A stretch of DNA of 37,901 nt from Ectothiorhodospiraceae bacterium WFHF3C12 (GTDB lineage Bacteria; Pseudomonadota; Gammaproteobacteria; Nitrococcales; Nitrococcaceae): the NCBI GenBank assembly GCA_013519935.1, contig JACDUA010000043.1:1-37901 (forward strand), given 5' to 3'. The notes beneath the pieces were generated by a model. It had not been told where the DNA came from. It saw nothing but the letters and a program-made list of their open reading frames with translations, and made no database searches. Below, one piece after another: positions 9,366 through 37,896 of the stretch. A program made the translations under genes and the position numbers. Numbering within the stretch: the stretch's first letter is position 1; every line of letters begins with the position of its first letter.

Positions 9366-9377
9366 GGCTTGCCCTCC

Positions 9378-9905: not shown

Positions 9906-9962
9906 GGTTCAACCTCCTCGGTCTCTTATTGGTCTGCGCCGGAGTCCGGCGTCTTGCCCAAC

Positions 9963-9977: not shown

Positions 9978-10039
9978 GTCCGGCCATACCGCGCCGTGGG
10001 CGGCTGCGCGCCGTTGACGCTACGCGCGGACGTCACCCA

Positions 10040-10071: not shown

Positions 10072-10093
10072 CGGGTAACATTCAGGCTACACT
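10065..10093 (+). promoter_or_regulatory. Possible sigma70 promoter of aioXSR
   Basis: TTACCG at 10065-10070 and TACACT at 10088-10093 are separated by 17 bases and lie 54 bases before the aioX start. Match to consensus is only moderate. The -35 box overlaps the right half of the candidate AioR dyad, which would allow autoregulation. Confidence 0.35.
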
Positions 10094-10147
10094 GAGCAGT
10101 AAGCATCGAATCCGCTGTCGTAGAGGGCACGAGGAGAGGGTGAGCTC

Positions 10148-13807: not shown

Positions 13808-13849
13808 CCACGTGCGCCTGATGGGTGGAGCACCATTGTAGGCGGTGGA

Positions 13850-22483: not shown

Positions 22484-23770
22484 CTACCCCAGTGCGTCGA
22501 CGCGCTCGGCGATACGGTTGGCCGCCTCCTGCAGCGCGGTCATCTCGTCAGCGCGCAGCGGCAGTTCGACGACCTCGGCCAGTCCATGGCGCCCCAATCT
22601 GACGGGCAGGCCCACACGCGTGTCCGCAAGACCGTAGACCCCTTTGGGTCGCACGCAGGCCGCGATGACACTGTTGTCGCCGGTCACCATCGCGCGGACC
22701 ATGGAGGCCGCCGATTCCCCGGGGGAATAGTATGCGCTGCCTTCCTTCAGGAGTCCGACCACCTCGGCCCCTGAATTGCGGGCGCGCTCGACTATCGCCT
22801 CGAGCTCATCCGCGGGTAGCTGATCCGCAAGCGGCCTTCCCCTGGCGGTGGCAAGGCTGAGCGGAATAACCATCTCGGGGCCGTGGCTACCAAGAGCGAG
22901 CGCTTCGACCTCACCAGGCTCGGCGATGCCGGTGAGCGCGACGAGCGAGCAGAACCGCGCGCTATCAAGAACGCCGGCCATTCCGATGACACGTTCGGGC
23001 TCAAAGCCTGTGCGCCGGGTCATCAGTTCGGTCATTTCCTCGAGAGGGTTGGTCACGACCACCACCACCGCGTTGGGCGCATATTCGCGGATCTTTTCAG
23101 CCACCGAGTGTATAATCTTGGCATTGACTTCGGTCAGGTCGGTTCGGGTCATACCGGGCTTGCGTGGCCGGCCCGCGGTCATGACGATGTAGTCGGCGTC
23201 GCGCAGCGAGTTGAGGTCGTCTGAACCGTGAACCCGCGAGGTAAATCCGCGCAGGCCGGCCGAGTGCCACATGTCGAGCGCGAGCCCCTCTGCAAGCCCC
23301 GGCACGATGTCGATCATTGTTACTGTGGAGAAGAGCGACGTCTCCACGAGGCGCAGGGCGGTGGTGGCACCGACATGCCCCGCACCGATGACGGCAACAC
23401 GCGGGCGGCTGTCGGCCACGGTTCCGCTGTCTGCCCGGGTATTCTCAGTTCCAGGACGAGGCTCCATGGGTCCCGGCAGGGGCGCGCCCCGGCGATAGAG
23501 CGCGCCGGAGAACGCGCCAAGTTGGGTAGGCGGGGAAGACGCGTTCCGAGCGTTCCCATGTGCGCCGCTTCGCGGCGCCGGGTTCTGCCCAGTGGGGATG
23601 TCGTTGCTCCGGGACGGAGCTGCGGATTTGGACTTGTCCGACGCCTCATAACGAATCTCAACTCCAAGCTCCCCCGCCCGGTCCCACGCGAGCGGCGTGA
23701 CGATGTCCTCTTTGCCGAGGCGCAGCTCGGGACCAGCGCCTTCGACGTCGTCGGCGGTAATGACACTCAT
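22484..23770 (-). CDS. Malate-dehydrogenase-like enzyme with EutQ-like N-terminal tag
   Basis: The 428-residue protein has an NAD-dependent malate/lactate dehydrogenase core from about residue 123: GxGxxG in IGAGHVG (129-134), the substrate loop PRKPGMTRTD of malate-type enzymes, VVVTNPLEEM, and the catalytic His in LGSHGPEM. Residues 1-45 are foreign to that family: ITADDVEG... VTPLAWDRAGELGVEI follows the pattern of the EutQ N-terminus (ITANDIR ... ITPEAREVA). A ~75-residue Pro/Ser/Arg-rich linker joins the two. The tag may anchor or direct the enzyme to the shell. It overlaps the BMC-T stop in ATGA. It probably cycles NAD inside the compartment; oxaloacetate/malate is the family default. 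Confidence 0.82.
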   Translation of the reverse strand: MSVITADDVEGAGPELRLGKEDIVTPLAWDRAGELGVEIRYEASDKSKSAAPSRSNDIPTGQNPAPRSGAHGNARNASSPPTQLGAFSGALYRRGAPLPGPMEPRPGTENTRADSGTVADSRPRVAVIGAGHVGATTALRLVETSLFSTVTMIDIVPGLAEGLALDMWHSAGLRGFTSRVHGSDDLNSLRDADYIVMTAGRPRKPGMTRTDLTEVNAKIIHSVAEKIREYAPNAVVVVVTNPLEEMTELMTRRTGFEPERVIGMAGVLDSARFCSLVALTGIAEPGEVEALALGSHGPEMVIPLSLATARGRPLADQLPADELEAIVERARNSGAEVVGLLKEGSAYYSPGESAASMVRAMVTGDNSVIAACVRPKGVYGLADTRVGLPVRLGRHGLAEVVELPLRADEMTALQEAANRIAERVDALG

Positions 23771-24387
23771 TGCTCACGCCCTTCCATTTGCTCGAGGCAG
23801 GCCACGGCAGCCTCCATCGCGGACTGCACCTCGGATTCACGGCCGCCAACGAAGATGCGTCCGAAGCGCCCTACAGCGCGAACCTCGACGATATTGATGT
23901 CGGCTGCCTTCTCCGCCTCGTTGGCGGCAAGGCTGACGTAGGCGGCAGGGCTGGCCTCTAGCACGAACATGCTCTGCTTGGGCAGGAGCAGCGTGCCTTT
24001 ACGCCATTTGTTGATCAGCTGCGCCTGATAGGCGTTGACGTTGGTGATCAGCTGCGTCGAGGCGACCTTCGGCTTGACCCGGTCGGCCTCGGTCAGTCCC
24101 AGAAACTCCAGCACAGCGTCGCCGGCGGCTAACACCTCTTCCTGCGTCTTTGAATGCACTTCCAACAAGCCGAACTCCCGTTCGATAATCTGCATGGCAG
24201 GCCGGACATCGGCGGCCTTAAGCGCGATGTCGGCAACACGGAAGATTGCATTGCCCGGCGCGACCTCGATGAATAGCTGTGACATTCCCGCCACGGGGAC
24301 GTCGCCCGGCGACGTTGCGGCGACGTGGGCAGCTGCTTGGGGCTGCATGCTGTCGATAAACGCGTAGGTACGAAGTTGAAAGCTCAT
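23767..24387 (-). CDS. BMC-T trimeric shell protein (tandem BMC domains)
   Basis: The 206-residue protein has two BMC folds in series (about 1-95 and 105-200). Recognisable pieces are LFIEVAPGNAIFRVADIALKA, GLLEVHSKTQEEVLAAGDAV in the first half and QSMFVLEASPAAYVSLAANE, INIVEVRAVGRFGRIFVGG, VQSAMEAAVACLEQ in the second. Tandem-domain proteins form pseudohexameric trimers in microcompartment facets, often with a larger gated pore that passes bulky substrates or cofactors. It starts 4 bases after the EutJ-like stop and overlaps the dehydrogenase by 4, so translation is coupled through three genes. Confidence 0.9.
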   Translation of the reverse strand: MSFQLRTYAFIDSMQPQAAAHVAATSPGDVPVAGMSQLFIEVAPGNAIFRVADIALKAADVRPAMQIIEREFGLLEVHSKTQEEVLAAGDAVLEFLGLTEADRVKPKVASTQLITNVNAYQAQLINKWRKGTLLLPKQSMFVLEASPAAYVSLAANEAEKAADINIVEVRAVGRFGRIFVGGRESEVQSAMEAAVACLEQMEGREQ

Positions 24388-24391: not shown

Positions 24392-25186
24392 TCAGCTCAT
24401 TGCTATGCCAAAAGGTGTGACGAGTTCGGAATGCGGGTAGGCGATTGCCGCGATACCCAGATACTTCGAAATGATGTCATCCGATCCGGACACGCGGAGC
24501 GCGCCGCCGACCAGATGTACGGACTCTACCCGTCGGCCACTGATCTGCTGTTGTACGGACGCCGCGATGCGCTCGATGCCCGGTCGCAGGATCGGGGCGT
24601 GCTCCGCTGCGCCGTCCCGTTTCAGGCGTTCGGCGTCTTCTATCGGAATACCGAGTGAACCCGCCAGGATGAGGTCGAGATGCCAGCCGCCGCCTGAGCG
24701 GTCGTCAACGGCCACGATTCGGCCATCCTCCACGATCCCCACACCGGTGGACCCGCCGCCGACGTCTACCAGAGCACCTTCGCGCAGGCACAAAAGCGCC
24801 TGTGCCGCGCTAATTTCATCCACCAGATTCCGGCACTCGATTTCCGCCGTCTCTAGCACGAACTTGCAGGCGCGGGCGTCGGGCTTGGGAACGCCGGGCG
24901 GATGTGCCGTGGCTGCATCTTGGACCTGGATCCCTATGAGCTCTTCCGCCCGCCCTTTCAGCTCCGTAACGGCGGTGGCCGCGTCCGAGAAATTGACCAC
25001 TACGCCGTCCCGCACGGCGCCGCAGCGGACGAAGTCCCAGTAAACCGGCCGCCCGCTATCGTCCACGGCGCACAACACGACGGTTGCGGTACCGAGATCG
25101 ACGCCGAAATGCAGGTCTCCTGTGATGTCCGACGTGGGCTCTCGGAACCGCTCCACGGCGTCGGTCAGGAACGAGTTCGCGGTCAT
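24392..25186 (-). CDS. eutJ: EutJ-like actin-fold chaperone/ATPase
   Basis: The 264-residue protein has the actin/Hsp70-type phosphate motifs GVDLGTATVVLCAVD and VDVGGGSTGVGIVEDG, plus VRDGVVVNFSDAATAV, SFPP-like AHPPGVPK, GGWHLDLILAGSLGI and HLVGGALRV, in the same order as EutJ of ethanolamine operons. EutJ proteins are thought to help assemble or reactivate microcompartment enzymes. I start it at the ATG at 25184-25186, which has GAAGAGG six bases ahead; an upstream ATG at 25261 would overlap the aldehyde dehydrogenase gene and add residues not seen in EutJ. Symbol by similarity only, since no other Eut enzyme is present. Confidence 0.85.
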   Translation of the reverse strand: MTANSFLTDAVERFREPTSDITGDLHFGVDLGTATVVLCAVDDSGRPVYWDFVRCGAVRDGVVVNFSDAATAVTELKGRAEELIGIQVQDAATAHPPGVPKPDARACKFVLETAEIECRNLVDEISAAQALLCLREGALVDVGGGSTGVGIVEDGRIVAVDDRSGGGWHLDLILAGSLGIPIEDAERLKRDGAAEHAPILRPGIERIAASVQQQISGRRVESVHLVGGALRVSGSDDIISKYLGIAAIAYPHSELVTPFGIAMS

Positions 25187-25224
25187 GACCGCCTCTTCGT
25201 TTTGTGGATGGCACTGCAGCATCG

Positions 25225-26622
25225 TCACTGCCTCGGTGAGAGGTCGTACAGGGTTCGCCATGGCCGGATCTCATGCGCCACGCGCTTGATGTTGATGAGA
25301 TGCAGCGGCGTGACGTTGTCGCTTACGATGGAACCGCTCCAGGTCCCGGTCCCCAACATGAAGGAAGGATCGGTGGCACAGCTGTAGCCCATGCCGCCAA
25401 ATAGGGTCGGCGTGTTGATAACGACGCGTCCTGCGCGTAGGGATGAGAAACGGCCGATGACGCCGTCGTCCTCGCAGTGCAGACCGAGCGTGTGGCCTTC
25501 ACCGCCGAACGCGAGTATCTCGCGGCAGCGCTCGTAGCCGGCTTCGGCATTACGCGTCGTGAAGAACGACAGCACCGGCCCGAGTATCTCCGCCGAAAGC
25601 GGGTACTCGCGGCCTACCGCGCGGGGCTCAACCCCGAGCACACGGCAATTGTCCGGCGGTGTAATGCCGATCTTGTGGGCCAATGTCTTCGCCGACAGGC
25701 CGACCTCGCTGGGCCTCAGCCCACCGCTTTCGGTGAAGAGCAGCTGGGCCAGGCGGTCCTGCTCTTCGGGGCTCAGGAACAGCGTGCCTTGGGACTCGAA
25801 GGCGGCACGAACCTCGGCGGCAATCGGCTCGTCCAGAACGATGGACTGCTCGGCCACGCACGCCGTCCCGTTGTCGAAGGACTTCGATGTGATGCACATC
25901 AGGGCCGCCTCGCGCACGTCCTTCACCGAGCGGTGGATGTAGACCGGTACGTTGCCTGCGCCCACGGCGAGCGTCGGTTTGCCACTGGAATAGGCTGCCT
26001 GAACCATGCCGGGTCCGCCGGTCGCCATGATCAAGGAGACATCCCGGTGGCGCATCAGCTCCGCAGTGGAGTCCAAGGTGACGTTGGTCATGCACGAGAC
26101 GAGGCCGTCCGGCGCACCGGCCTTGATCGCCGCCTCAGCCATCACTTCGGCAGAGGCGGCACTGCTTCTGGCCGCGCGAGGATGGGGGGCGCAAACAATC
26201 GCATTGCCCGACTTGACCGCCGCAAGGCACTTGAAGAACACGGTCGAAGAGGGGTTTGTCACCGGAATAATCCCCGCGATGACCCCAACCGGGCTGCCGA
26301 TGGCGGTTACCCTGTTGGCCTCATCGACCCAGAGCACGCCGACGGTGCGCATCGGCATCATGGACTGAGCCACGAATTCCGTGTTGTAGAGGTTTTTGTA
26401 AATCTTGTCCTCGTAGACACCAAAGCCGGTCTCGTCGACGACCATGCGGGCGATCTTGTCGGCCGCGGCCGACCCTGCCTTGGCCATCGCCGCCACGATC
26501 TCGTCGAGTTTGCGTTGCTCCGTCCCCTCGAAGGCCTCAAACGCCCTCCGCGCCTTCTGGGCCAACCCCCTGGCCTCGGCCAAGGCCGTAAGGTCAGGGT
26601 CGAGATTTTGGGTCGCGCTCAT
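25225..26622 (-). CDS. CoA-acylating aldehyde dehydrogenase (EutE/PduP/SauS type)
   Basis: The 465-residue enzyme has the acylating branch motifs: IPVTNPSSTVFFKCLAA, the cysteine nucleophile in SFDNGTACVAEQS, and the AdhE-like tail GGMGYSCATDPSFMLGTGTW ... NVTPLHLINIKRVA. It turns an aldehyde, NAD and CoA into acyl-CoA and is the common core enzyme of metabolosomes. The first ~40 residues form a charged amphipathic stretch (ALAEARGLAQKARRAFEAF) that could serve in encapsulation. The aldehyde is unknown: acetaldehyde and sulfoacetaldehyde enzymes share these motifs. GGGGGAG precedes the ATG. It follows BMC-H by 56 bases containing a hairpin. Confidence 0.92.
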   Translation of the reverse strand: MSATQNLDPDLTALAEARGLAQKARRAFEAFEGTEQRKLDEIVAAMAKAGSAAADKIARMVVDETGFGVYEDKIYKNLYNTEFVAQSMMPMRTVGVLWVDEANRVTAIGSPVGVIAGIIPVTNPSSTVFFKCLAAVKSGNAIVCAPHPRAARSSAASAEVMAEAAIKAGAPDGLVSCMTNVTLDSTAELMRHRDVSLIMATGGPGMVQAAYSSGKPTLAVGAGNVPVYIHRSVKDVREAALMCITSKSFDNGTACVAEQSIVLDEPIAAEVRAAFESQGTLFLSPEEQDRLAQLLFTESGGLRPSEVGLSAKTLAHKIGITPPDNCRVLGVEPRAVGREYPLSAEILGPVLSFFTTRNAEAGYERCREILAFGGEGHTLGLHCEDDGVIGRFSSLRAGRVVINTPTLFGGMGYSCATDPSFMLGTGTWSGSIVSDNVTPLHLINIKRVAHEIRPWRTLYDLSPRQ

Positions 26623-26678: not shown

Positions 26679-26984
26679 TCAGCCCTTGCCCAGAATCGAT
26701 TCGACATCCTCGTGCGGGCGCGGAATCACGTGCACGGAAACGATCTCGCCGATCTTCCCGGCAGCCGCCGCACCTGCGTCGGTCGCGGCCTTCACGGCCC
26801 CAACGTCGCCGCGAACCATCACTGTGACCAGTCCGCCGCCGATCTGCTCACGGGCAATCAGCTGTACGTTGGCGGCCTTGACCATGGCATCCGCAGCCTC
26901 GATTGCGCCGACGAGGCCTTTTGTCTCGATCAGGCCGAGAGCCCCTTGCGGGCCAGATGTAGTAGTGGTGGTATTGGTTGCCAT
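26679..26984 (-). CDS. BMC-H hexameric shell protein
   Basis: This 101-residue single-domain BMC protein of the PduA/EutM/CcmK kind forms the hexagonal tiles of the shell. Typical elements are [39 protein letters not shown] and [15 protein letters not shown] threonine-rich N-terminal tail of about 10 residues precedes the fold. AAGGAG stands before the ATG. It is the second gene of the minus arm, 52 bases after BMC-P. It is a paralogue of the BMC-H that closes the plus arm. Confidence 0.95.
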
Positions 26985-27036: not shown

Positions 27037-27339
27037 TTAGCGTCGTTCAAAAACGTAAGAACCGCCGACCCGAACGGTATCGAGGATGGCCACGATGGCG
27101 GCATCGACGGGTGCTTCCAATGGCGTGGATGAGAGTCGCGCGGCGCTGCCGAATGCGACTAAGACGACCTCGCCGATGCCAGCGCCGACCGTGTCGATTG
27201 CCACGTAGTATTCCGCGCTCTCATCGGGTGTGGCATTCGGGTCCTCCTGGAAGTCTCTTACGAGCAAGAGCTTGTAAGACTCCAGGCCACTCGACTTGAC
27301 AGTCGCGACAGCCGTTCCGATAACCCGTCCCAGCTTCAC
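27037..27339 (-). CDS. BMC-P pentameric vertex protein (EutN/CcmL family)
   Basis: The 100-residue protein carries the EutN/CcmL signature: KLGRVIGTAVATVKSSGLE, KLLLVRDF, YYVAIDTVGAGIGEVVLVAFGSAAR and DAAIVAILDTV. Pentamers cap the corners of the shell. The start is a GTG with GGGAGGA six bases ahead. As the first gene of the minus arm it lies beside the divergent regulatory region. Its presence with BMC-H and BMC-T means the locus can build a closed shell. Confidence 0.95.
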   Translation of the reverse strand: MKLGRVIGTAVATVKSSGLESYKLLLVRDFQEDPNATPDESAEYYVAIDTVGAGIGEVVLVAFGSAARLSSTPLEAPVDAAIVAILDTVRVGGSYVFERR

Positions 27340-27554: not shown

Positions 27555-28565
27555 ATGATCAAAGACGAAGACGTCCATTTCCACGAAACCGATCCGGAGC
27601 ACGCCAATTGGGCCGAGACGAACTATTTCGGCTTCTTCAACGCTGAGGCGCCTCTCAACGTGGGTGTTTATGGGCTGTTCCGTCCGAACCTGGGAATCGT
27701 TGGATCAACTATCTGCATCAATTCCGGCTTCGCCAACGCCCCGTGGGAAGCCGACTTCGTTGATATGCAGGCTTCCCTTCCTATTCCCGACGATCTAGCG
27801 CACTACCGGCTAGCCAATGGGCTCGAGGTGAAGTGCACCTGCCCGAATATGGACTGGGTGATCCGCTATGACGATGGCGAGGGCACTCTGATTGACGTCG
27901 AATACAAGGCGATCATGCCGCCCTTCGACATACAGGATCCCGAGATGGATCCGATGAAGGCAAAGGCGCTGGCCGAGGCCGACAAGAGCGGGAACTTTGC
28001 TTGGGGCACTGCCTACAATGGGCATTTCGATCAATCAGGCCGCGTCCGGGGCCGGGTCGCCGTCCGTGGCAAGGAATACCCTATCGACTGTGTGTCGACC
28101 ATGGATCACAGCTGGGGGCCGCGTCCGGAACGAGGCGCGCCGAACATGTCCTGGCTGCACGCCCACTTCTCGGACGATCTGGCGATCCACGCGATTCTCG
28201 GCTTCGACGCCGAGACTAATGGCGCTGAACTTTCGCTGGCTCACGGCTATGTCGCCGAGAACGGCGAGATCTTCGGGTTAAAGGCAGGGCATGGCCGCAC
28301 GGTCCGTCGCATCGAGCGATACGCGGACAAGGTCGAGCTCTTTCTGACCGACTCGAAGGACCGCGAGTGGCGCCTAACGGGGCGGGGCCTGACCACGTTT
28401 CCGTGGATGTGCTGGCCTAACATGGTCGCCTTCAACGTACTGGCCGAGTGGAACCTACACGGTCAGATGGGTCACGGCGAGATCATGGACTTCTTCGAGT
28501 CGCCGCAGCTGACGCGGCTGAACGCGTCTGCGAAGACTCGCCGCCCGGTGGGTCGCGAGGGCTAA
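27555..28565 (+). CDS. CrtC/AttH-like (DUF7064/7065-type) lipocalin-fold protein
   Basis: The 336-residue protein opens with HFHETDPEHANWAETNYFGF and has VYGLFRPNLGIVGS, DVEYKAIMPPFDIQ, STMDHSWGPRPERGAPNMSW and GHGEIMDF. This style is that of the beta-barrel CrtC/AttH superfamily, whose members hydrate isoprenoids or have no known activity. I cannot assign a reaction. GGGGAGGAG stands 9 bases before the ATG; a frame beginning at 27510 has no ribosome site. It is the first gene of the plus arm and sits 3 bases ahead of the HAD gene, so it clearly belongs to the BMC operon. It could act on the substrate, or be the lyase/hydratase. Confidence 0.65.
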   Translation: MIKDEDVHFHETDPEHANWAETNYFGFFNAEAPLNVGVYGLFRPNLGIVGSTICINSGFANAPWEADFVDMQASLPIPDDLAHYRLANGLEVKCTCPNMDWVIRYDDGEGTLIDVEYKAIMPPFDIQDPEMDPMKAKALAEADKSGNFAWGTAYNGHFDQSGRVRGRVAVRGKEYPIDCVSTMDHSWGPRPERGAPNMSWLHAHFSDDLAIHAILGFDAETNGAELSLAHGYVAENGEIFGLKAGHGRTVRRIERYADKVELFLTDSKDREWRLTGRGLTTFPWMCWPNMVAFNVLAEWNLHGQMGHGEIMDFFESPQLTRLNASAKTRRPVGREG

Positions 28566-28568: not shown

Positions 28569-29537
28569 ATGCCCAAGGCCATCCTGTTCGATCTCGACGG
28601 CACGTTGGTCCAGGCGCGCGAGTCGTCCTGGCGCGTCTTCGCTAAGACGAATGCGAAGTTCGGCCTGGGAATCGAGACGCAGGAGGAGTATTTCCGGTTG
28701 CTGGAAGGGAATCTGTTCGAGTCGCTCCGCCGCCTCGCAAATGATGAAGAGCGGGCGGCGGAGGCCTCTGCGCATTTCCTTGAGTTGCTCAAGGAGGAGT
28801 ACGACCCGCCCTTCGTTCCCGGCATGGTAGACGTGGTCAAGTGCATCGCGGGGGCGTGTGCCCTCGCGGTTGTCTCCTCGAACTCAATGTCCACTATCCG
28901 GCGCATTCTCACGAAGGCGGGTCTGCAGCATTGCTTCTCCCATGTTTTCGGCGGCGACGTCGAGCCGGACAAACGCACCTGCGTTCAAAGGTTTTTGGCT
29001 GATGCGGACTATTCGATCAACCGCCAGTGCGCGCCGGCCTACGTCGAAGACCACCGACCCGAGGACGTTTCCGAGCACCAAGTCGTTCTCGTGACGGACA
29101 CGGTTGGTGACGTCACCCACGCCGTCGAGTGCGGGATCCGTGCCGTCGGAGTCGCCTGGGGCATGCATTCAGAAGAGGCCCTGCGGGCGGCCGGCGCGGA
29201 ATTCGTCGCTGTCTGGCCACAGGAGCTGGTCTCGTATCTAGTTCCGGGTGGTGTCTCGAACGAGTCGTGCGCTTTCTCGGCGCCGCGTTTGGGAATGCCC
29301 ACAGAACACGGCGGTGAGTGCAGCTGCGGCGGCGACTGTAGCTGTTTCGACCACCGCGATCCAGATCTTGCCGCGGCATCCAGGCTACGGCGGGAACGGC
29401 GCCTGGCATCGTCCAGGAGCTTATTGGTCCGGCTGGTGGGTTCGGCGCAGCCGCCCCCTGACCGGCCATCCGACTGGAAGCCCACCGACGAGCTGCTGAT
29501 GGCGAGCCTGAGACGCATTCGTCGGTCCGGTGAATAA
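28569..29537 (+). CDS. HAD-superfamily phosphatase with CxCGGDCxC tail
   Basis: Residues 1-225 are a HAD phosphatase of the phosphoglycolate-phosphatase type: nucleophile Asp8 and Asp10 in FDLDGTLVQ, motif II VVSSNS, the Lys in EPDKRT and motif IV VTDTVGDV (Asp177, Asp181). Residues ~235-322 are an unusual extension with the cluster C251-x-C253-GGD-C257-x-C259 and a final amphipathic helix (TDELLMASLRRIRRSGE). Four close cysteines suggest a metal or Fe-S site; the last helix may be an encapsulation peptide. It starts 3 bases after the CrtC-like gene. A phosphatase in an operon with a phosphotransfer module hints at a phosphorylated intermediate. Confidence 0.78.
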   Translation: MPKAILFDLDGTLVQARESSWRVFAKTNAKFGLGIETQEEYFRLLEGNLFESLRRLANDEERAAEASAHFLELLKEEYDPPFVPGMVDVVKCIAGACALAVVSSNSMSTIRRILTKAGLQHCFSHVFGGDVEPDKRTCVQRFLADADYSINRQCAPAYVEDHRPEDVSEHQVVLVTDTVGDVTHAVECGIRAVGVAWGMHSEEALRAAGAEFVAVWPQELVSYLVPGGVSNESCAFSAPRLGMPTEHGGECSCGGDCSCFDHRDPDLAAASRLRRERRLASSRSLLVRLVGSAQPPPDRPSDWKPTDELLMASLRRIRRSGE

Positions 29538-29579: not shown

Positions 29580-29993
29580 ATGAGCGTCATTGCAGAAGGT
29601 ATGATCAGCTTCGCAACGAAGTCACGGGTTTCGGGGGTGGTGAAGTATTTGCCCGATCCGCAATCCGTTATGGACCTCATTCAGAGCGGCAAGCTGCAGG
29701 ATCACATCCTGCTGGTCCAGGGGGGAACGACCACCTTCTTGTCGCCGGCGCTGACTATGGGGGCAATCGGCGTGATCACCATGTCCGGCGCACCCGAATC
29801 CCATCTCGGCATCCTGTCGCGGGAATTTCAGATCCCGTGCGTCATGACCGCTTACCTCACGAACAGCGAATCCCGATATGCGCCCGGCGGGGACAATGAC
29901 GCCCACTTCAAGGAAGTTATTGAAGCACTCGACGGCAAAAAGGTCGAGATTGATGCCGACGATGACGAGACAGGGCGGATCATCGCTCTGTAA
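29580..29993 (+). CDS. Stand-alone PEP-utilising-enzyme swivel (phosphohistidine) domain
   Basis: The 137-residue protein consists only of the mobile domain found inside PEP synthase and PPDK. The core GVITMSGAPESHLGILSREF with PCVM matches the TxxGGxTSHxAIxxRxxxIPxV site, and His75 is the expected phosphohistidine. There is no ATP-grasp and no PEP barrel. It must therefore exchange phosphate with a partner; the PPDK-like protein three genes downstream is the natural donor. Subunit-split precedents are phenylphosphate synthase of Thauera. A strong GAGGAGG precedes the ATG, and the gap to the next gene is 60 bases. Confidence 0.82.
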   Translation: MSVIAEGMISFATKSRVSGVVKYLPDPQSVMDLIQSGKLQDHILLVQGGTTTFLSPALTMGAIGVITMSGAPESHLGILSREFQIPCVMTAYLTNSESRYAPGGDNDAHFKEVIEALDGKKVEIDADDDETGRIIAL

Positions 29994-30053
29994 TCGGAAG
30001 ATCATGCAGACGTCGCGGTCGAGCATCCGCACGAGAGTACCGGAGGAGAGACA

Positions 30054-31463
30054 ATGAGTAATTATAAGGATCGCTATCGGGAAGACGACGAGGGCCTTCG
30101 CTTTCAGGACCTTGAGTATATCGGTAATTTCAAGGATCTGCCGCCGGTCCCGGATGGAATCCTTGGTGACCGGATGATGCGACAACGTGCGAAATCCGGT
30201 GTCCTGGAAAAAGTTTCCAAGGAGCACGTACTGAACGATCAGTTCACGCTCGATGAGTTGAACGATCTGAACAATTATCTCGCCTGGAACATCTGGGACG
30301 TACTGGTGATGCGCGCTACCGAAGGCGAATCCGGCATGATTCCGCGCCAGCAGTACGAGATTCTCGCATTCATGCACGAGTTCCTGCGCTGGCCGGAGCT
30401 CCTCGACATGACGACGGCGGAGATCGGAGCGCAGGGCGTCATGGACATCGGTGCCACGGCGCGGCGGGAAATCGGCACGAAGGTCAACTGCGTGCACGAT
30501 TGGTGCATCGGCGCCGTCGGATTCGGCATGGGACGCTGCGGTCTGTTGGCACTCGAGGCGATTGAGCCTCGGGACTACGTCCGCGAGAGCAACTCCATAC
30601 TGAAGTTTTTCCAGCGCGTGAACTGGGCCAAACGGCAGAACGGCTACATCCTGAATTCTCAGGACCGGTATCGCTGCCAGATTCACGATCAGGACGTCAT
30701 CGACCAGATCACCGGCGAGATCGAGTATTTCGAACCGGACAGTGAAAGGGCGAGCTACTTCCAGCGATTCAACGCCGGGGCGGAATTGCTCTCCTTCTTG
30801 GTTCACTACGACTGCCGGCTCGGCCTGGGCGACACGGGTCCCTATGAACTCCCGGACGGCAAGCTACTCATCATTCGTGACCTGTTCACGAACGAGGACG
30901 CGTTCTACTGGAGCGACGTCTGTCAGCACGAGAATGTCCCCCACTGCTACACGGTCTGCATGGTCCTCGACCCCGAGCTGATGGACCTGCAAGAGATCCG
31001 CGTGAACGACATTTCGACGACGTTCACACGGCCGAAAAACTATATCGCGGCAGTGGTCGGCGGCGCGGTGTTCGTGCGCGAAAAGTGGGACACGCCGATG
31101 TCCGAGGTTTACCCCGTCAAGATCAACGACCTCAGCGATCGGTGGGAGGCGATCCAGCGGGCGACGATGAAGCTCTACACGAAGTTCTCGCGGATGCCCC
31201 GCCGGGTCTTGGTGGAAAACGGTCATTACGTCTACTACGTCGATATGATCCTCCCGCACCTTCGTCTGGCCGGGACCTATGACAAGGCCGTCAAGGACTA
31301 CAACCTCTGGGAGATCGACCGCCGGGTCGCCAACTACTACTACGAAATCGACAAGCGCGAGTTCGCGAGTGCTGTCGTGCCCCTCAAGATCTTCTCAGGA
31401 GAAGGGTACCTGCCGTTCCCCGAGGGAACCGATCTGACGCGCTCGAAGTACTTCGTGACGTAA
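30054..31463 (+). CDS. Unrecognised 469-residue protein, candidate signature enzyme of the BMC
   Basis: I do not recognise a family. The protein is soluble-looking, acidic and rich in aromatic residues, with no signal or membrane helix. A cysteine/glycine-rich patch, NCVHDWCIGAVGFGMGRCG (146-163), and QHENVPHCYTVC (291-302) are the most striking segments and could bind metal or cofactor. GGAGGAG precedes the ATG. It lies between the swivel-domain gene and the winged-helix-like gene in the plus arm. Because every other gene here has a service role (shell, redox, phosphotransfer), this is the most likely enzyme for the first committed step, or the acceptor subunit for the swivel domain. That is inference from context. 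Confidence 0.75.
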   Translation: MSNYKDRYREDDEGLRFQDLEYIGNFKDLPPVPDGILGDRMMRQRAKSGVLEKVSKEHVLNDQFTLDELNDLNNYLAWNIWDVLVMRATEGESGMIPRQQYEILAFMHEFLRWPELLDMTTAEIGAQGVMDIGATARREIGTKVNCVHDWCIGAVGFGMGRCGLLALEAIEPRDYVRESNSILKFFQRVNWAKRQNGYILNSQDRYRCQIHDQDVIDQITGEIEYFEPDSERASYFQRFNAGAELLSFLVHYDCRLGLGDTGPYELPDGKLLIIRDLFTNEDAFYWSDVCQHENVPHCYTVCMVLDPELMDLQEIRVNDISTTFTRPKNYIAAVVGGAVFVREKWDTPMSEVYPVKINDLSDRWEAIQRATMKLYTKFSRMPRRVLVENGHYVYYVDMILPHLRLAGTYDKAVKDYNLWEIDRRVANYYYEIDKREFASAVVPLKIFSGEGYLPFPEGTDLTRSKYFVT

Positions 31464-31480
31464 CTATCACCTCCACCTAC

Positions 31481-31513
31481 AGATCCTCGGCGCGTCTTGC
31501 GCCGAGGATCTGC
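31481..31513 (+). promoter_or_regulatory. Strong hairpin inside the plus-arm operon
   Basis: A perfect 14-bp stem (CAGATCCTCGGCGC / GCGCCGAGGATCTG) with a 5-base loop lies 18 bases after the stop of the 469-residue gene and ends just before GGGAGGAAA, the ribosome site of the next gene. There is no T run, so it is more likely an attenuator, processing site or 3'-end stabiliser than a simple terminator. Confidence 0.75.
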
Positions 31514-31529
31514 ACCGGGAGGAAACTGC

Positions 31530-32105
31530 ATGACTCCATTGAATGATACCGATTTTGCGGTCCTCAACGCTGCTCATCTGAATAAGATGGCCGGCCCCGC
31601 ATCCATTGCAGCGGCCACGCAGCTCGATCAGGGAACCGTCGACGAGGTTCTGGACCGCGCACAGCAAAACGGATTGGGGCAGAAGACGGGGAACCAGTTC
31701 CTTATTTTTCCGGATGGTTCGAAAGCCGTTCTGGAGTACTACGACCGGACCTATGGTGAGTTGCGGGATTCCGACGAGCTTGGCGCATGGTACGAGCGTT
31801 TCGAAACCGTGAACACGCAGTTCATTCAGCACATCACGGACTGGCAGAACACCGGGGGGGACGAGGGTGTTGAGGCAAAACTGATCAAGACGGTGAACCG
31901 GCACGTTCGGGCCGTCGAGAAACTCCTGCCGCAGATTCCGCGATATGAGCAATACGTTCGCCGGTTTCATGAGGCTATCTCCAAAGTCGATCGCGGCGAA
32001 ACTGACTTCGTCTGCAAACCGACCGTCGACTCGATCCACAATATCTGGTTCGAATTTCACGAAGACATCCTTTCCGTCCTCGGGCGTCCTCGCGATACGA
32101 CATGA
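31530..32105 (+). CDS. Small helical protein with N-terminal winged-helix-like region
   Basis: The 191-residue protein starts LNDTDFAVLNAAHLNKMAGP and continues ASIAAATQLDQGTVDEVLDRAQQNGLGQ, the helix pattern of a MarR-type winged helix (helix, recognition helix, then GNQFLIFPDG as wing). The rest (~70-185) is helical and charged. It may be an accessory subunit or a regulator. It overlaps the PPDK-like gene in ATGA, which points to a physical or stoichiometric link with that protein rather than with DNA. GGGAGGAAA supports the ATG at 31530. Function unknown. Confidence 0.65.
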   Translation: MTPLNDTDFAVLNAAHLNKMAGPASIAAATQLDQGTVDEVLDRAQQNGLGQKTGNQFLIFPDGSKAVLEYYDRTYGELRDSDELGAWYERFETVNTQFIQHITDWQNTGGDEGVEAKLIKTVNRHVRAVEKLLPQIPRYEQYVRRFHEAISKVDRGETDFVCKPTVDSIHNIWFEFHEDILSVLGRPRDTT

Positions 32106-34600
32106 CAAGGCTTCCTGAAATGGGTAACGATCACGATCAACAGCAGTTCGTGCGGACGATTCATGACATCGACCCTGAGAATGTGAAGGCCTATGGCGGC
32201 AAGGCCGTGGGCCTAGCCCGCATGGCGAGGAGCGGAGTGCCGATACCACCGGCTATCGTCATCGGCACCGATGGTTATCATGCGTTCCACGAGAACGGCG
32301 GAGTGATTCCCGGCGACATGATCGAACAGATCCATGCGGGCATCGGTTATCTGGAATCCCAGACCGGCCGGGAATTCGGCGGCCCCAAGTCGCCTCTGCT
32401 GGTCTCCGTGCGCTCGGGTGCCGCGATCAGCATGCCCGGCATGATGGACACCATTCTCAACCTCGGTTTGAACGCCGAGTCCGCATTTGAGTGGGCTGGC
32501 GCTATCGGCAATACCGGTTTCGTGCTCGACAGCTGGATACGGTTCTGGGGCATGTATGCCGAAACCGTCCTGGACATCGATGCCGACGAGTTGCTCGATG
32601 CCTTGAGCCGCGAGATTGCGGCCGTGGAGACGGCGGCGACGCTCGAGAGCTATGAGGCTCTCGAGCGCGCGGCTCTCGCGGCTATCGGGGAACAGGGCGC
32701 CGAGGCGACAGCTGACCCGCGAAAGCAGTTGATCAAGACCGTGGCCGCAGTGTTCGGCTCTTGGGACAGCCCGCGCGCCCAGGCCTATCGCCAGCATCAC
32801 GGCATTTCCGACGACATGGGGACGGCTGTCACGATTCAGGCGATGGTGTTCGGCAACATGGATGACGAATCCGGCACCGGCGTGGCCTTCACTCGTGACC
32901 CCAATGATGGCAGCAAGACGCTCTACGGCGAATTTCTCACCGGTCATCAAGGCGAAGACTTGGTTTCCGGTACGCATACACCGATCAAGCTGTCCGATCA
33001 CCGTATGCCGGACGACACCGCCATCGCGCTCGTCCAGCACGGAGAGACCCTTGAGCGAATCTACCGGGATGCCGTGGACATCGAGTTCACCGTTGAGTCG
33101 GGGACACTGTACTTCCTACAGGTCCGCGCGGCGAAGCGGACGGCAAGCGCGGCCGTCCGCATCGCCTGTGAGCTAGTCGATGAAGGGCTGATCTCGATGC
33201 CCGAGGCCATCAGCCGGGTCTCACTGGACCAGGTTGCCAACCTTTTGCGGCCTGGTTTCGACCCGGAAGCGCTCGAAAAGGCGACGTTGCTGACGAAGGG
33301 CCTCGGCTCCTCTCCCGGGCAGGCCGCCGGCGTGGCGATTCTGGATTCCGACATGGCTGCGGACCGGGCGGATCAGGGAGAGAACGTAATTCTCCTACGC
33401 CCGACCACGAGCCCCCAGGATATTCGCGGCATGCTCGCGTCGAACGGCATTGTTACAGCCAAGGGAGGGGCTCTCAGCCACGCGGCCGTAGTCTCGCGGG
33501 CACTAGACAAACCCTGCATCGTGGGCTGTGAGGAGATCGAGATTGACCTGGATGCGCGGACCTTCAGCGTCGGCGGTAAGACCTTTAACGAAGGGGTGTC
33601 CATCTCGATCGACGGCGCGGATGGACGGGTGCTTGAGGGCGTCGTGCCGATCAGCGCCGGCGTAGGCAGCGGCGAAGCACTTCGCGGGTTCCTCGATATG
33701 GCACGAGCGGTTTCAGGCGCCGAGATCTGGTCCGCCCCGCGCGGAGAAGTCGAGGCCGCACATGCGGTGGAGGCGAGCGCGGACGGCGTCGGGTTGGTCT
33801 CTTTGACCGATCTCGTGATGTCCCGCGGTGCGATGGGTCGCTTCACCCAGAGCATTTCCCAGTTAACCCGCGACGGCGTGGAACAAGAAACGCTGGAAGA
33901 GATATCCCAAGTCGTGCGTGATGCCTGTCTACCGCTGATCCGGGCAGCCATCGCCACGCCCGTTCACCTTCGGTTACCGCAGCTGCGCTCCGAGAGGGCA
34001 AGGGATCTGGTTGCGAACTGGGAAGACATCCCCGTGTGGCAGATCCTGCCGCTGGGGAGCCGCAACCTGATAGGCGCCATGCTGGACGGCATTGCTCGCG
34101 CTCAGAGTGATGCGGGGCACACCGACGTCAGCGTAGTTGCTGGGGGCATTACCGACCCCTCCGAATTTGAGGCGTTCGAGAGCGACGTCGCGCGAACCGC
34201 CGGCCTCGGAGCCGGCATGTTGGTTCAAAACGCCATCCTTCTGCAGCGGCTCGCGGAGCAGCCTTTGGAGGACAGATCGATCTGGATCGACGTGAACGAG
34301 ATCATCCGGACCGTACACGGGTTTCCCATGCGTGTAATGCACATGCCGTCGGTTCTGGACGACTACTGCAAGCAAGGCCTCATCCGGGCCAATCCATTTC
34401 GGGATCCGGGCAGCTTCCTGACCAAGCTGTTGCAGTCGGTTGGCCGATTTGCAGGCGATAGGTTCGGAGTGACCGACGCCGGTGTGTTCGGGGACGAGCT
34501 ATTGTCCTTGCTCTACGCAGCTGGTTTTCGTCGGTTCTCGTCATCCACGGCGGCAGGCGGGATCGTAAGAATCAAGCTGGCTCGACTCGCGGAGGAGTAA
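32102..34600 (+). CDS. PPDK-like phosphotransferase with degenerate pyruvate/PEP barrel
   Basis: Residues 1-345 are a PPDK ATP-grasp domain (GGKAVGLARM, VSVRSGAAISMPGMMDTILN, FGNMDDESGTGVAFTRDP, DIEFTV...YFLQVRAAKRTA). Residues ~395-515 are the swivel domain with phosphohistidine His460 in TAKGGALSHAAVVSR. Both are near-canonical. The C-terminal region (~525-832) aligns in outline with the PEP/pyruvate barrel but RTEHMF-type, GTNDLTQ and CGEHGG motifs of PPDK are not there; at those places stand LVSLTDLVM (565-573) and TDAGVFGDEL (791-800), so the catalytic cysteine is missing. It should still autophosphorylate from ATP but probably not with pyruvate as acceptor. Total length is ~40-50 shorter than PPDK. 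It starts in ATGA overlap with the gene before and ends 3 bases ahead of BMC-H. Confidence 0.85.
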   Translation: MTRLPEMGNDHDQQQFVRTIHDIDPENVKAYGGKAVGLARMARSGVPIPPAIVIGTDGYHAFHENGGVIPGDMIEQIHAGIGYLESQTGREFGGPKSPLLVSVRSGAAISMPGMMDTILNLGLNAESAFEWAGAIGNTGFVLDSWIRFWGMYAETVLDIDADELLDALSREIAAVETAATLESYEALERAALAAIGEQGAEATADPRKQLIKTVAAVFGSWDSPRAQAYRQHHGISDDMGTAVTIQAMVFGNMDDESGTGVAFTRDPNDGSKTLYGEFLTGHQGEDLVSGTHTPIKLSDHRMPDDTAIALVQHGETLERIYRDAVDIEFTVESGTLYFLQVRAAKRTASAAVRIACELVDEGLISMPEAISRVSLDQVANLLRPGFDPEALEKATLLTKGLGSSPGQAAGVAILDSDMAADRADQGENVILLRPTTSPQDIRGMLASNGIVTAKGGALSHAAVVSRALDKPCIVGCEEIEIDLDARTFSVGGKTFNEGVSISIDGADGRVLEGVVPISAGVGSGEALRGFLDMARAVSGAEIWSAPRGEVEAAHAVEASADGVGLVSLTDLVMSRGAMGRFTQSISQLTRDGVEQETLEEISQVVRDACLPLIRAAIATPVHLRLPQLRSERARDLVANWEDIPVWQILPLGSRNLIGAMLDGIARAQSDAGHTDVSVVAGGITDPSEFEAFESDVARTAGLGAGMLVQNAILLQRLAEQPLEDRSIWIDVNEIIRTVHGFPMRVMHMPSVLDDYCKQGLIRANPFRDPGSFLTKLLQSVGRFAGDRFGVTDAGVFGDELLSLLYAAGFRRFSSSTAAGGIVRIKLARLAEE

Positions 34601-34603: not shown

Positions 34604-34894
34604 ATGGCCAAGACATCCCAAGCCCTCGGGTTCGTGGAGACGAAGGGTCTAACCGCGGCGACCGAAGCGGCCGATGCAATGGTGAAGGCAGCGAGCGTAC
34701 GCATTGTGACGAAGCAGCGCCCAGGCGGCGGCCTGGTTGCCATAATCATCGAGGGTGACGTGGGTGCCGTGAAGGCCGCCGTGGACGCCGGCCGGGCGGC
34801 TGCTGATGCGGTGGGTGAGGTTCATTCGGCCCACATCATTCCGCGCCCGCACGAGGATATCGCCGGAATTCTGGAACGCCCGCCAGTCCGCTAG
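34604..34894 (+). CDS. BMC-H hexameric shell protein, second copy
   Basis: This 96-residue single-domain shell protein has [40 protein letters not shown] and [14 protein letters not shown]. It is clearly paralogous to the BMC-H at 26679-26984 but has a shorter N-terminus and a basic tail (ERPPVR). A second hexamer type usually changes pore chemistry or packing. GGAGGAG spans the PPDK-like stop and serves its ATG. As the last gene of the plus arm it ties the phosphotransfer genes to the compartment. Confidence 0.95.
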
Positions 34895-36739: not shown

Positions 36740-37027
36740 ATGGCAAAGCGCAAGCGCTACACACAGGAGTTCAAGCAGGAGGCGGTGCGGCTGGCCCGCT
36801 CGAGCTCGGACTCGGTGAGCAAGATCGCCCGGGATCTGGGGCTGAACCCAAACATGTTGAGCCGCTGGTGCCGGGAGCTGGAGGCCGACGGGGCCAAGGC
36901 CTTCCGCGGTCAGGGCAATGCTCGGGATGAGGAGGTGGCACGGCTGCGCCGGGAGCTCGCCCAGGTCAAGCAGGAACGGGATTTTTTAAAGGACGCGGCA
37001 GCGTACTTCGCCAAAGAGTCGAAGTAA
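36740..37027 (+). CDS. IS3-family transposase OrfA
   Basis: The 95-residue protein has the helix-turn-helix of IS3/IS911 OrfA (YTQEFKQEAVRLARSS, SKIARDLGLNPNMLSRWCRE) and a leucine-zipper-like tail (EVARLRRELAQVKQERDFLK). It binds the IS ends and limits transposition. GAGGAGG precedes the ATG. The reading frame contains a -1 slippery heptamer at 36982-36988. Confidence 0.92.
   Translation: MAKRKRYTQEFKQEAVRLARSSSDSVSKIARDLGLNPNMLSRWCRELEADGAKAFRGQGNARDEEVARLRRELAQVKQERDFLKDAAAYFAKESK
36982..36988 (+). promoter_or_regulatory. Programmed -1 frameshift heptamer T_TTT_TTA
   Basis: In the OrfA frame the sequence reads GA-T_TTT_TTA-AAG, a canonical X_XXY_YYZ slippery site. After a -1 shift the frame runs without stop into OrfB. 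This is the usual way IS3 elements make the OrfAB transposase, though A_AAA_AAG is the commoner heptamer. Confidence 0.75.
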
Positions 37028-37035
37028 GGTACGGC

Positions 37036-37896
37036 GTGATAGCACGCTGCCGCGAGCAGTATCCGATCAAGCTGATGTGCCGGTGTCTGAACGTCTCCCG
37101 CAGCGGCTACTACGCCTGGCAGCGGCGCGGTCCCTCGCGCCGGGCCCGGGCCAATGCCCGGTTGCTGGAGCAGATCCAGGACAAGCACGACGACAGCGAC
37201 CAGGTCCTGGGGGCAGCGGGCATTCGCGATGCGCTGTGCTACGAGGGCGAGCGGTGCAGCGTTAACCGTGTTGCACGGCTAATGCGCCAGGCGGGACTGC
37301 GCGGCATCCCGGCGAAGCGGCGCTGGCGCTCAAAGTCCAGCGGTCAACGCCCCGATGGGATCGACAACGAGCTCGAACGGGACTTTCTGGCCGAGGCGCC
37401 GAACACCAAGTGGGTCACCGATATCACCTATCTGCGCACCGCTGAAGGCTGGTTGTACCTGTGTGCCGTGCTCGATCTGTGGCAAGGGTTGGTGGTCGGC
37501 TGGTCGATGAGCCACCGTCAGGACAGTCACCTAGTGCTCCAGGCCGTGCTGATGGCGCTGTGGCAGCGTGAGCACAAGGCGCCGGTGATTTTGCACTCCG
37601 ACCGTGGCACGCAGTTCACCAGCGACGAATACCAGCAGTTCCTCAGCGACCATGACCTGGTATGCAGCATGAGCGCGGTCGGCAGCTGTGCCGACAACGC
37701 CGCCGCCGAAGGCTTCTTCGGCATGCTCAAGCGTGAGCGGGTCAACCGCCGCCGGTATCAGACCCGGGCCGAGGCACGCACGGATGTGTTCGACTACATC
37801 GAGCGCTTCTACAATCCGAGAATACGTCGGCGGCTACAAATACAGGATCAACAGCAGGCGCAACCCTTAACCCAACCGTCCGTGGAAACGGGGTAG
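37036..37896 (+). CDS. IS3-family transposase OrfB (DDE catalytic part)
   Basis: The 286-residue frame carries an HTH_21-type region (CRCLNVSRSGYYAWQRRG) and the rve DDE domain: first Asp in WVTDITYL, second in LHSDRGTQF and the Glu in NAAAEGFFGMLKRE. A GTG could start it, but expression is probably as OrfAB through the slippery site at 36982. The last ~25 residues (RIRRRLQIQDQQQAQPLTQ...) lack the usual LGYxSP motif after the FYNPR element, so the tail may have a small deletion or shift; activity is uncertain. Confidence 0.9.
   Translation: MIARCREQYPIKLMCRCLNVSRSGYYAWQRRGPSRRARANARLLEQIQDKHDDSDQVLGAAGIRDALCYEGERCSVNRVARLMRQAGLRGIPAKRRWRSKSSGQRPDGIDNELERDFLAEAPNTKWVTDITYLRTAEGWLYLCAVLDLWQGLVVGWSMSHRQDSHLVLQAVLMALWQREHKAPVILHSDRGTQFTSDEYQQFLSDHDLVCSMSAVGSCADNAAAEGFFGMLKRERVNRRRYQTRAEARTDVFDYIERFYNPRIRRRLQIQDQQQAQPLTQPSVETG

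Follow-up and report, generated by a model that had tools for sequence, protein, structure and literature searches.

What does a free-standing phosphohistidine domain do inside a bacterial microcompartment (BMC) locus? The question is raised by contig JACDUA010000043.1 of Ectothiorhodospiraceae bacterium WFHF3C12, whose 37,901 nt we call the window. Here, a gene for a small phosphohistidine swivel is followed by genes for a 469-residue protein (P469), a 202-residue protein (P202) and a protein resembling pyruvate phosphate dikinase (PPDK). A preliminary description of this stretch had likened the set to phenylphosphate synthase and proposed that it primes an alcohol, enol or phenol for the microcompartment pathway. 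From the computed gene set, conservation, fusions, histidines, folds and neighbourhoods, we infer an order of phosphotransfer, a substrate, an allylic shift and a location relative to the shell. The reading we prefer, at roughly even odds (probability ∼0.5), is an ATP-driven tertiary-to-primary allylic alcohol isomerase, composed of a four-chain dikinase with two phosphohistidines, a lyase or isomerase resembling 25-phosphosteroid lyase (25-PSL) and a BMC-packed phosphatase.

In this proposed route, the PPDK-like protein would charge its own His460 from ATP and pass the phosphoryl group to His75 of the free swivel, which would deliver it to a P469-bound alcohol, while P202 would serve as a structural or docking subunit. 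The alcohol would be the tertiary allylic 2-methyl-3-buten-2-ol (MBO). A DUF7064/DUF7065 protein would ionise the tertiary phosphoester, and capture at the primary carbon would give dimethylallyl phosphate (or prenol directly), from which a HAD phosphatase would free prenol. The alcohol dehydrogenase and CoA-acylating aldehyde dehydrogenase of the BMC would then convert prenol via prenal to 3-methylcrotonyl-CoA, which would enter the leucine route.

The four genes as one split unit

Open reading frames (ORFs) and Pfam confirmed the four genes in the order given by the preliminary description, all on the forward strand. The swivel (29580–29993, 137 residues) matches PF00391 with 31.7 bits (cut-off 23.1) and carries His75 (codon 29802–29804) in the motif TMSGAPESHLGI. 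P469, a putative substrate-binding or acceptor subunit, lies at 30054–31463 and brings the pair to the 606 residues (137 + 469) stated before. P202 (31497–32105), a predicted winged-helix and helical-bundle subunit, has 202 residues when read from a TTG at 31497, and the ATG at 31530 is the likelier start; neither P469 nor P202 has a Pfam family. Overlapping P202 by 4 bases, the gene of the putative phosphoryl donor (32102–34600, 832 residues) encodes PPDK_N and a PEP-utilizers mobile domain. The latter is a second PF00391 swivel with a conserved His460 (codon 33479–33481), which the preliminary description had left out.

To follow the unit in other genomes, GTDB contigs were scanned with a five-sequence alignment, which gave 147 stretches and 114 relatives. 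All locus counts below refer to the best 80 of these 114, the other 34 and the plasmid loci being set aside. A swivel counted as nearby within 700 bases of P469, a P202 within 900 bases and a PPDK within 2.5 kb, the last two only where there was enough flank. P469 was fused to a swivel or had one nearby in 79/80 loci. In the close group (P469 identity at least 60%, 66 loci), a swivel was nearby in 65/66, P202 in 60/61 and PPDK in 59/61, so that the four genes do co-occur beyond this strain, which the preliminary description had set as a test along with fusion or constant adjacency of swivel and P469. The only close-group locus lacking a nearby swivel was L077, whose genes are broken: at L077:7651-10873 of Actinomycetospora cinnamomea, both the swivel and the P469 frames are interrupted, and the P469 match falls into two pieces ∼1.3 kb apart. 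All 14 loci of the distant group had a swivel (fused in 11), P202 was found in 10/13 (fused in 9) and PPDK was nearby in 4/12. A separate swivel gene preceded P469 in 67 loci and followed it in two (L081, L085). Fusions amounted to 12 proteins in 11 loci; 10 of them join swivel, P469 and P202, and the swivel is N-terminal in all 12. Because of the adjacency in 79/80 loci and the 12 fused proteins, there is a strong case for a single ATP-dependent kinase unit split over the swivel, P469, P202 and the PPDK-like protein, and very probably for one acting on an organic hydroxyl.

Plasmids carry the unit as well. A tblastn search with P469 returned eight plasmid records at E ≤ 1e-3, among them Rhodococcus oxybenzonivorans pRB98 (P469 identity 70%), with all four genes and a BMC set close to that of the window, and Paraburkholderia PGU19 (69%), with DUF7064, HAD, swivel, P469, P202 and PPDK and no shell gene in the region covered. 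In Rhodococcus opacus B4, swivel, P469 and P202 make up a single 809-residue ORF. At E ≤ 1e-50, a match was found in the window genome alone among the 23 genomes of its family and in NFACC02 alone among 298 Pseudomonadaceae; in the window's class, 3/274 genomes matched at E ≤ 0.001, two of them distantly. This patchy spread suggests that the kinase system was distributed by horizontal transfer. The Rhodococcus pyridinivorans P23 plasmid (L014) holds several divergent swivel/P469 pairs, including one fusion, with a PPDK, a P202 homologue and an AMP-ligase nearby, and the family therefore appears broader than the MBO-type cluster. In addition, four of the loci with fused swivel, P469 and P202 (L010, L084, L088, L094) have a common family of small kinase-like genes, of which two R. 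opacus genes of L010 belong to the EcKL/APH family; a link to the sterol kinase 25-HSK (see below) would be a guess.

For P469 itself, family libraries and PDB sequences gave no sequence likeness to a known acceptor domain, and neither P469 nor its profile found anything credible among PDB sequences (elongation factor Tu and a long-chain-base protein at E 0.046 or worse). A fused relative of 768 residues, L090, was modelled with high confidence (pLDDT 93.1, pTM 0.87). Its P202-like part starts with two helices and two strands, all of them short, ahead of a helical bundle, in agreement with the winged-helix-like subunit of the preliminary description. This predicted winged-helix-like element at the start of P202, together with the annotation of the Methylibium P202 homologue as MarR family, could also fit a regulatory phosphorelay resembling a phosphotransferase system (PTS), in which P202 binds DNA and the swivel reports the ATP or metabolite state to the BMC operon. 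However, 10 proteins hold swivel, P469 and P202 in one chain at loci where no shell gene was seen, and the window already has a separate GAF/PucR regulator, which makes a regulatory role extremely improbable.

Two phosphohistidines and the PPDK-like donor

Both candidate phosphohistidines are conserved. In alignments (with one short PPDK ORF and one swivel ORF omitted), His460 was kept in 68/68 PPDK-like relatives and His75 in 86/87 related segments of the swivel, missing only from a fragment ORF of the broken L077 gene; a cruder pattern search for the histidine motifs, superseded by the alignment, had found 58/69 PPDK and 85/88 swivel ORFs. The ATP-site residues K34, R104, E328 and Q340 were each present in 67/68 PPDK-like relatives. 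At the position of the pyruvate-site Arg, the window has Ser, 5/68 relatives have Arg and 9 have a gap. For the roles of the ATP-site and pyruvate-site residues, including that of the catalytic Arg, we assume those generally ascribed to PPDK.

The donor scored 554.6 bits with the PPDK family TIGR01828 over residues 15–625 (below the cut-off of 843), 508 bits with NF004531 (above the cut-off of 456) and 87.6 bits with PEP_synth. Pfam detected no C-terminal PEP-utilizers family at E ≤ 0.1 in the PPDK-like protein, the alignment to the best solved PPDK stops at residue 580, and several donors of the fused lineage end shortly past the swivel. The donor thus resembles PPDK in its N-terminal ATP-grasp and swivel, with ATP-site and His residues conserved, and differs from it in a degenerate C-terminal pyruvate-binding part that has not kept the catalytic Arg. 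The retention of the ATP site and both phosphohistidines, along with the loss of the pyruvate site, suggests a His-to-His relay, in which the phosphoryl group would pass from ATP via His460 and His75 to the substrate. At one locus (L074:10867-14605), the PPDK frame is split over three overlapping ORFs, owing to either a broken gene or a sequencing error, and no DUF7064 or shell gene is within reach.

How does such a unit compare with known phosphohistidine kinases? It works like phenylphosphate synthase and HpeHI yet departs from what defines them in its histidine motif, the order of its domains, the type of donor and the number of swivels. As in the two-component dikinases HpeHI (Rhodococcus), CreHI and PpsAB (phenylphosphate synthase), which act on small molecules, the ATP-grasp donor is on a polypeptide apart from the swivel and acceptor (PPDK_N has its own chain here), the swivel has a conserved and presumably catalytic His, and an organic hydroxyl would be phosphorylated to start catabolism. 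Unlike them, it has the extra P202 subunit and would act on an aliphatic tertiary alcohol. The motif T/SxxGGxxxH given for HpeHI in an excerpt of PMC12167813 reads T-M-S-G-A-P-E-S-H in the window, with Ala replacing the second Gly. HpeH carries its swivel C-terminally on the same chain as the acceptor, whereas here the swivel is a free gene, or N-terminal in the 12 fusions. The donors of HpeHI and PpsAB are like phosphoenolpyruvate (PEP) synthase and have no swivel of their own, in contrast to the PPDK-type donor with His460. The same excerpt attributes one swivel to HpeHI, to PpsAB and to rifampin phosphotransferase (RPH) (PMC12167813). RPH shares the logic of ATP-grasp, substrate domain and swivel; in a fold search with the L090 swivel, its His domain (Z 10.2–10.3; 103–107 residues aligned, 28–29% identity) tied with pyruvate kinase (Z 10.5–10.6) as the best solved match. 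RPH is, however, one chain with a single C-terminal swivel, as opposed to four chains and two swivels here.

Could the unit nevertheless be a phenol kinase of the phenylphosphate synthase or HpeHI type, priming an aromatic compound for carboxylation or cleavage? One locus is found in Rhodococcus oxybenzonivorans, whose name presumably refers to the aromatic oxybenzone. A phosphohistidine swivel and an ATP-grasp donor on separate chains are what such an enzyme would have, and HpeHI, CreHI and PpsAB act on phenols in the excerpt consulted (PMC12167813). On the other hand, the genome has a single UbiD match, which lies on a different contig; the donor, in contrast to HpeI, resembles PPDK and has a His of its own; and the neighbours of the orthologues are C5 acyl-CoA genes. 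We consider a phenol kinase quite unlikely, and rejected phenol priming on the location of UbiD and the neighbouring genes. What survives of the analogy drawn in the preliminary description is the logic of a split phosphohistidine kinase, while membership of that class is not supported (PPDK-like donor with His460, N-terminal swivel). Its proposal of an alcohol, enol or phenol primed for the microcompartment is supported for an organic hydroxyl, as we infer, and unsupported for phenol.

Neighbouring genes, product and substrate

The DUF7064/DUF7065 protein (27555–28565, forward strand, Pfam) is a putative phosphate lyase or allylic isomerase acting on a tertiary phosphoester, and the HAD phosphatase (28569–29537, forward strand, PF13419) a putative alcohol-releasing enzyme. 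The AlphaFold2 (AF2) model of the former (pLDDT 92.8) had 25-PSL chains as its top five Foldseek matches (E from 3.0e-14 for 9g4c to 1.8e-12), followed by kievitone hydratase at 5.1e-8. VIA-align also placed 25-PSL first (9g2i: Z 23.8, rmsd 2.9 and 19% identity, with 269 residues aligned). AttH (2ich, Z 23.6) tied with it, and [4+2] cyclases (Z 21.7–22.6) and kievitone hydratase (Z 20.6–20.9) came lower. A DUF7064 profile gave no useful match among PDB sequences. By its fold, the DUF7064/DUF7065 protein is a putative phosphate lyase, although fold alone proves no activity. The protein occurs in 45 of the 51 close-relative loci of at least 15 kb and is a partner characteristic of the close group.

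For the solved structure, the name 25-PSL follows the PDB titles. In anaerobic cholesterol degradation, the tertiary alcohol at C25 is phosphorylated by a kinase, 25-hydroxysteroid kinase (25-HSK), and then loses its phosphate to a lyase, which leaves an alkene, the lyase gene being described as unknown or putative in the excerpts consulted (PMC8449060, PMC11061730). The pairing of a kinase with a protein resembling 25-PSL therefore suggests that such an alcohol is activated, and we regard tertiary alcohols as the probable substrate class. The parallel with 25-HSK and 25-PSL is one of logic, with a tertiary alcohol phosphorylated and the phosphate removed by a lyase of the same fold (a likeness of fold only). 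It differs in that 25-HSK is presented as a single kinase with a sequential mechanism in the excerpt of PMC8449060, as against a phosphohistidine dikinase here, of the PPDK/swivel type by its Pfam families, and in that we propose a C5 substrate and an allylic shift in place of the sterol route.

We looked for the product in the neighbours of orthologous loci. In 8 of the 11 listed shell-less loci (L012, L024, L028, L033 with L107, L055, L057, L062 and L078), there is the same kind of zinc alcohol dehydrogenase, aldehyde dehydrogenase and AMP-forming CoA ligase; L056, L063 and L065 have no such set within their sequence, and L009, L053 and L054 have it alongside shell genes. The set performs the net task of the BMC pair, from primary alcohol to acyl-CoA. 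Two loci extend further, with genes for methylcrotonyl-CoA carboxylase (MCC). Downstream of the Pseudomonas NFACC02 cluster (L078) are an outer-membrane protein, MCC-beta, a hydratase, MCC-alpha and a 3-hydroxy-3-methylglutaryl-CoA (HMG-CoA) lyase. The hydratase scores above the NF004227 cut-off; the NCBIfam name gamma-carboxygeranoyl-CoA hydratase, which we take to denote the LiuC/GnyH family, was not used as evidence for geranyl-CoA. In Endobacter (L033/L107), the order is alcohol dehydrogenase, ligase, aldehyde dehydrogenase, MCC-beta, biotin synthase (BioB), MCC-alpha, hydratase, lyase and a CoA-transferase subunit, and then DUF7064, HAD, swivel, P469, P202, PPDK and a regulator. Its hydratase and lyase are of the RipB and RipC/CitE families (below cut-off), and at E ≤ 1e-100 no second MCC-beta was found in the Endobacter genome. 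As a rough estimate, which assumes a chance of ∼0.6% per genome for a given gene to lie within 10 kb, MCC beside two of eight loci (at least 15 kb, with DUF7064, no shell) would be about a one-in-a-thousand event.

Where does the pathway enter? No homologue of the L102 acyl-CoA dehydrogenase was found at E ≤ 1e-12 in L078, L106, L033 or L107. Elsewhere, NFACC02 has a second MCC-beta of 90% identity, whose neighbour is an acyl-CoA dehydrogenase that corresponds in position to LiuA; L078 and ∼10 kb beyond it contain no homologue of this LiuA-like dehydrogenase. MCC genes without an acyl-CoA dehydrogenase therefore indicate that the NFACC02 and Endobacter pathways enter at 3-methylcrotonyl-CoA, bypassing isovaleryl-CoA. 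In the window genome, MCC and an acyl-CoA dehydrogenase are together on another contig (C132). Isoamyl alcohol via isovaleryl-CoA was rejected as a candidate, as no L102-type acyl-CoA dehydrogenase was found at E ≤ 1e-12 in L078, L106, L033 or L107. So were monoterpenols (linalool to geraniol), since the L078 MCC-beta is far closer to a solved methylcrotonyl-CoA carboxylase (1065 bits) than to geranyl-CoA carboxylase (480 bits); L033 separates the two less sharply, with geranyl-CoA carboxylase at 447 bits far behind its best matches. Conversion of tert-butanol to isobutene was dismissed as well, because alcohol and aldehyde dehydrogenases plus MCC would then be unneeded. A salvage kinase that makes dimethylallyl or related phosphates from prenol-type alcohols for isoprenoid biosynthesis would likewise take a C5 alcohol and yield a C5 phosphate. 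But the acylating aldehyde dehydrogenase, the shell and the MCC genes give the clusters a catabolic look, a phosphatase stands in the same gene row, and we find salvage very improbable.

For the substrate, Methylibium PM1 was informative. Here, DUF7064, HAD, P469 (30% identity), swivel and P202 genes lie shortly before the 2-hydroxyisobutyryl-CoA mutase genes. The PPDK gene is at another site of the plasmid, two annotated genes apart from a gene for a Rieske oxygenase, MPE_RS22205, which by gene order is Mpe_B0555 and which we take to be MdpJ. Mpe_B0555 is listed as a tert-butyl alcohol hydroxylase in a table of PMC4517660, and PM1 may convert the tertiary alcohol MBO to prenol by enzymes called uncharacterised in the excerpt of PMC4791888. 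Two metagenome-assembled genomes (MAGs) also have MdpJ-like genes at the cluster. In L042, which has shell genes, a Rieske protein 62% identical to MPE_RS22205 is encoded two genes past P469, with BMC-H and a GntR-type gene in between; in L056, one of 59% identity follows P202 directly. Such matches are uncommon: in the window's class, only 4 genomes out of 274 had one at E ≤ 1e-60, none above 47% identity, and the next best on plasmids had 44%. MBO is favoured because it is a C5 alcohol with a tertiary hydroxyl and its allylic isomer, prenol, leads to 3-methylcrotonyl-CoA by two oxidations. On the evidence of the orthologues, we think MBO, converted to prenol, somewhat likelier as the substrate than all other choices taken together. 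In terms of reaction alone, this resembles linalool isomerase and linalool dehydratase-isomerase, which also isomerise tertiary to primary allylic alcohols; unlike the present system, these are described with neither ATP nor a phosphoester in the excerpt of PMC4791888. Two neighbouring gene groups might produce the alcohol out of an ester or a ketone: a carboxylesterase after the MdpJ-like gene (L042:14666-16300), and an FMO-like monooxygenase and LipP1-type lipase before the kinase cluster in Rhodococcus (L009:5035-7875).

The same kinase and lyase might instead act on another tertiary C5 alcohol, such as 3-methylbutane-1,3-diol or 3-hydroxy-3-methylbutyrate (HMB), from which plain elimination of phosphate would give prenol or 3-methylcrotonate with no allylic shift. 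This would fit the chemistry of 25-PSL exactly and would also end at 3-methylcrotonyl-CoA. It would, however, leave the HAD phosphatase without a task, the MdpJ-like neighbours point to MBO, and with HMB the alcohol and aldehyde dehydrogenases would be unneeded; we therefore hold it to be unlikely.

A number of observations nevertheless weigh against isomerisation of MBO by this system. The known reaction of 25-PSL is a plain elimination with no allylic shift, which from MBO would yield isoprene, and its fold is common to AttH (with a tied Z), [4+2] cyclases and kievitone hydratase. The fold-search rows of L090 were filled by the swivel and helical tail, and the P469 part was barely covered. 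The assignment of the substrate derives from the neighbours of orthologues, as the window's own pathway genes are the BMC set only. No MdpJ homologue was found in the window genome at E ≤ 1e-60, and MBO would therefore need an outside supply. Among the informative neighbourhoods, PM1 has a P469 of just 30% identity and a HAD gene that looks fragmentary, L042 has no P202 or PPDK within reach, and L056 has neither PPDK nor a dehydrogenase/ligase set within reach. MCC genes are beside only 2/80 loci. The Endobacter carboxylase is harder to assign than that of Pseudomonas: among solved structures it matches AccD1 and an unnamed carboxyltransferase best, and MCC (750) falls less than 20 bits behind. 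In Xanthobacter L028, an HMG-CoA lyase is encoded on the opposite strand, and no MCC. Finally, in the distant, mostly fused lineage, DUF7064, HAD and shell genes were seen in 0/10 loci (at least 15 kb, at the thresholds used), with weak DUF7064-like ORFs (23–30%) in L082 and L088; the kinase family is therefore wider than the proposed pathway.

MBO is emitted by plants and is also a metabolite of fuel-oxygenate degradation. If the proposed isomerisation is correct, the system would be both the missing MBO-to-prenol step and the entry module of a hemiterpene-degrading microcompartment, would give that step genes in Actinomycetota and Pseudomonadota, and would provide a substrate for this microcompartment locus. 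Dikinases could then run on two phosphohistidine swivels and a free acceptor subunit, and activation of tertiary alcohols for elimination would be suggested for phosphohistidine kinases too, beyond 25-HSK. Among the matches listed in a literature search, no title joined microcompartments with MBO or prenol; one article on organelle lipids (PMC10397142) contains both 'microcompartment' and 'prenol'.

The compartment and the surrounding locus

If the pathway runs in a microcompartment, which of its enzymes are inside? The HAD phosphatase ends in a C-terminal tail (29253–29534, forward strand), a putative encapsulation peptide. This tail measures 67–156 residues in 44/44 loci showing a shell gene and 0–38 residues in 10/11 loci showing none; the eleventh, L063, has a tail of 125 residues, and its contig begins at the HAD gene. 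A hydrophobic-helix pattern in the last 30 HAD residues was present in 26/44 shell loci and 1/11 shell-less ones, and tail length is therefore the clearer mark. From its sequence, the tail would look like an encapsulation-like peptide, and its tie to shell loci suggests that the phosphatase frees the alcohol inside the shell, with the kinase outside. In a quick tree, the L078/L033/L028/L024 group was placed beside the group of the window, Roseiarcus and Bradyrhizobium with a support of 94 (mark 95). Shell-less loci fell in three places among shell loci, so that the same kinase seems to serve both settings. One shell-less cluster (L065) falls next to a gammaproteobacterial MAG in the tree; its contig is labelled as a Klebsiella pneumoniae MAG, which may be a mistake of binning or naming. 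A tyrosine-phosphatase-like gene recurs by blastp near L035, L036, L037, L051 and Methylibium L095:13446-14297, with PF13350 confirmed for those of L035 and PM1 only; it is possibly a second organic-phosphate phosphatase.

The BMC genes of the window flank the kinase on both sides. A BMC-H shell protein (34604–34894, forward strand; PF00936, 94.4 bits) lies on one side. On the other, all on the reverse strand, are the BMC-P (EutN/CcmL) vertex protein (27037–27339; PF03319, 89.2 bits), a second BMC-H protein (26679–26984; EutM-like with 127.5 bits, cut-off 133; PF00936), the CoA-acylating type aldehyde dehydrogenase (25225–26622; TIGR02518 acetylating acetaldehyde dehydrogenase, 482.2 bits, below the cut-off of 620.1), a EutJ-like protein (24392–25261; NF011660, 286.6 bits, cut-off 182) and a CcmP-like BMC-T shell protein (23767–24387; NF053796, 257.9 bits, cut-off 340; PF00936). 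These are followed by a malate-dehydrogenase-like protein with a 120-residue N-terminal extension, possibly for cofactor recycling (22484–23770; NF004863, 323 bits, cut-off 283), the zinc alcohol dehydrogenase (21443–22480; PF08240, PF00107) and the GAF/PucR-type helix-turn-helix (HTH) regulator (19108–21387; PF13556, PF13185), a homologue of which stands beside many related loci. All three PF00936 matches of the genome are inside the window.

With hexamer, pentamer and trimer shell genes, an acylating aldehyde dehydrogenase and an alcohol dehydrogenase, the locus has the genes of an aldehyde-type BMC. It shares BMC-H, BMC-P, BMC-T, EutJ and the two dehydrogenases with known representatives (EUT/PDU and the unknown-function types of PMC8217296), but the aldehyde would here come from a module of phosphorylation, lyase and phosphatase. 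Neither 'dikinase' nor 'PEP-utilizing' occurs in the main text of the BMC catalogue as retrieved (PMC8217296). General family scans of the window proteins showed no phosphotransacylase (PduL or Pta), with no search aimed at either.

Elsewhere in the window, a molybdopterin oxidoreductase with a Rieske_3 domain is followed by a PhnD-like periplasmic protein, an ORF that by eye resembles a sensor kinase and a sigma-54 response regulator (6873–14000). We take the oxidoreductase to be arsenite-oxidase-like, and the following genes presumably resemble AioXSR. The last ORFs of the window (36740–37896), not far from the BMC locus, read by eye like an IS3-type transposase pair.

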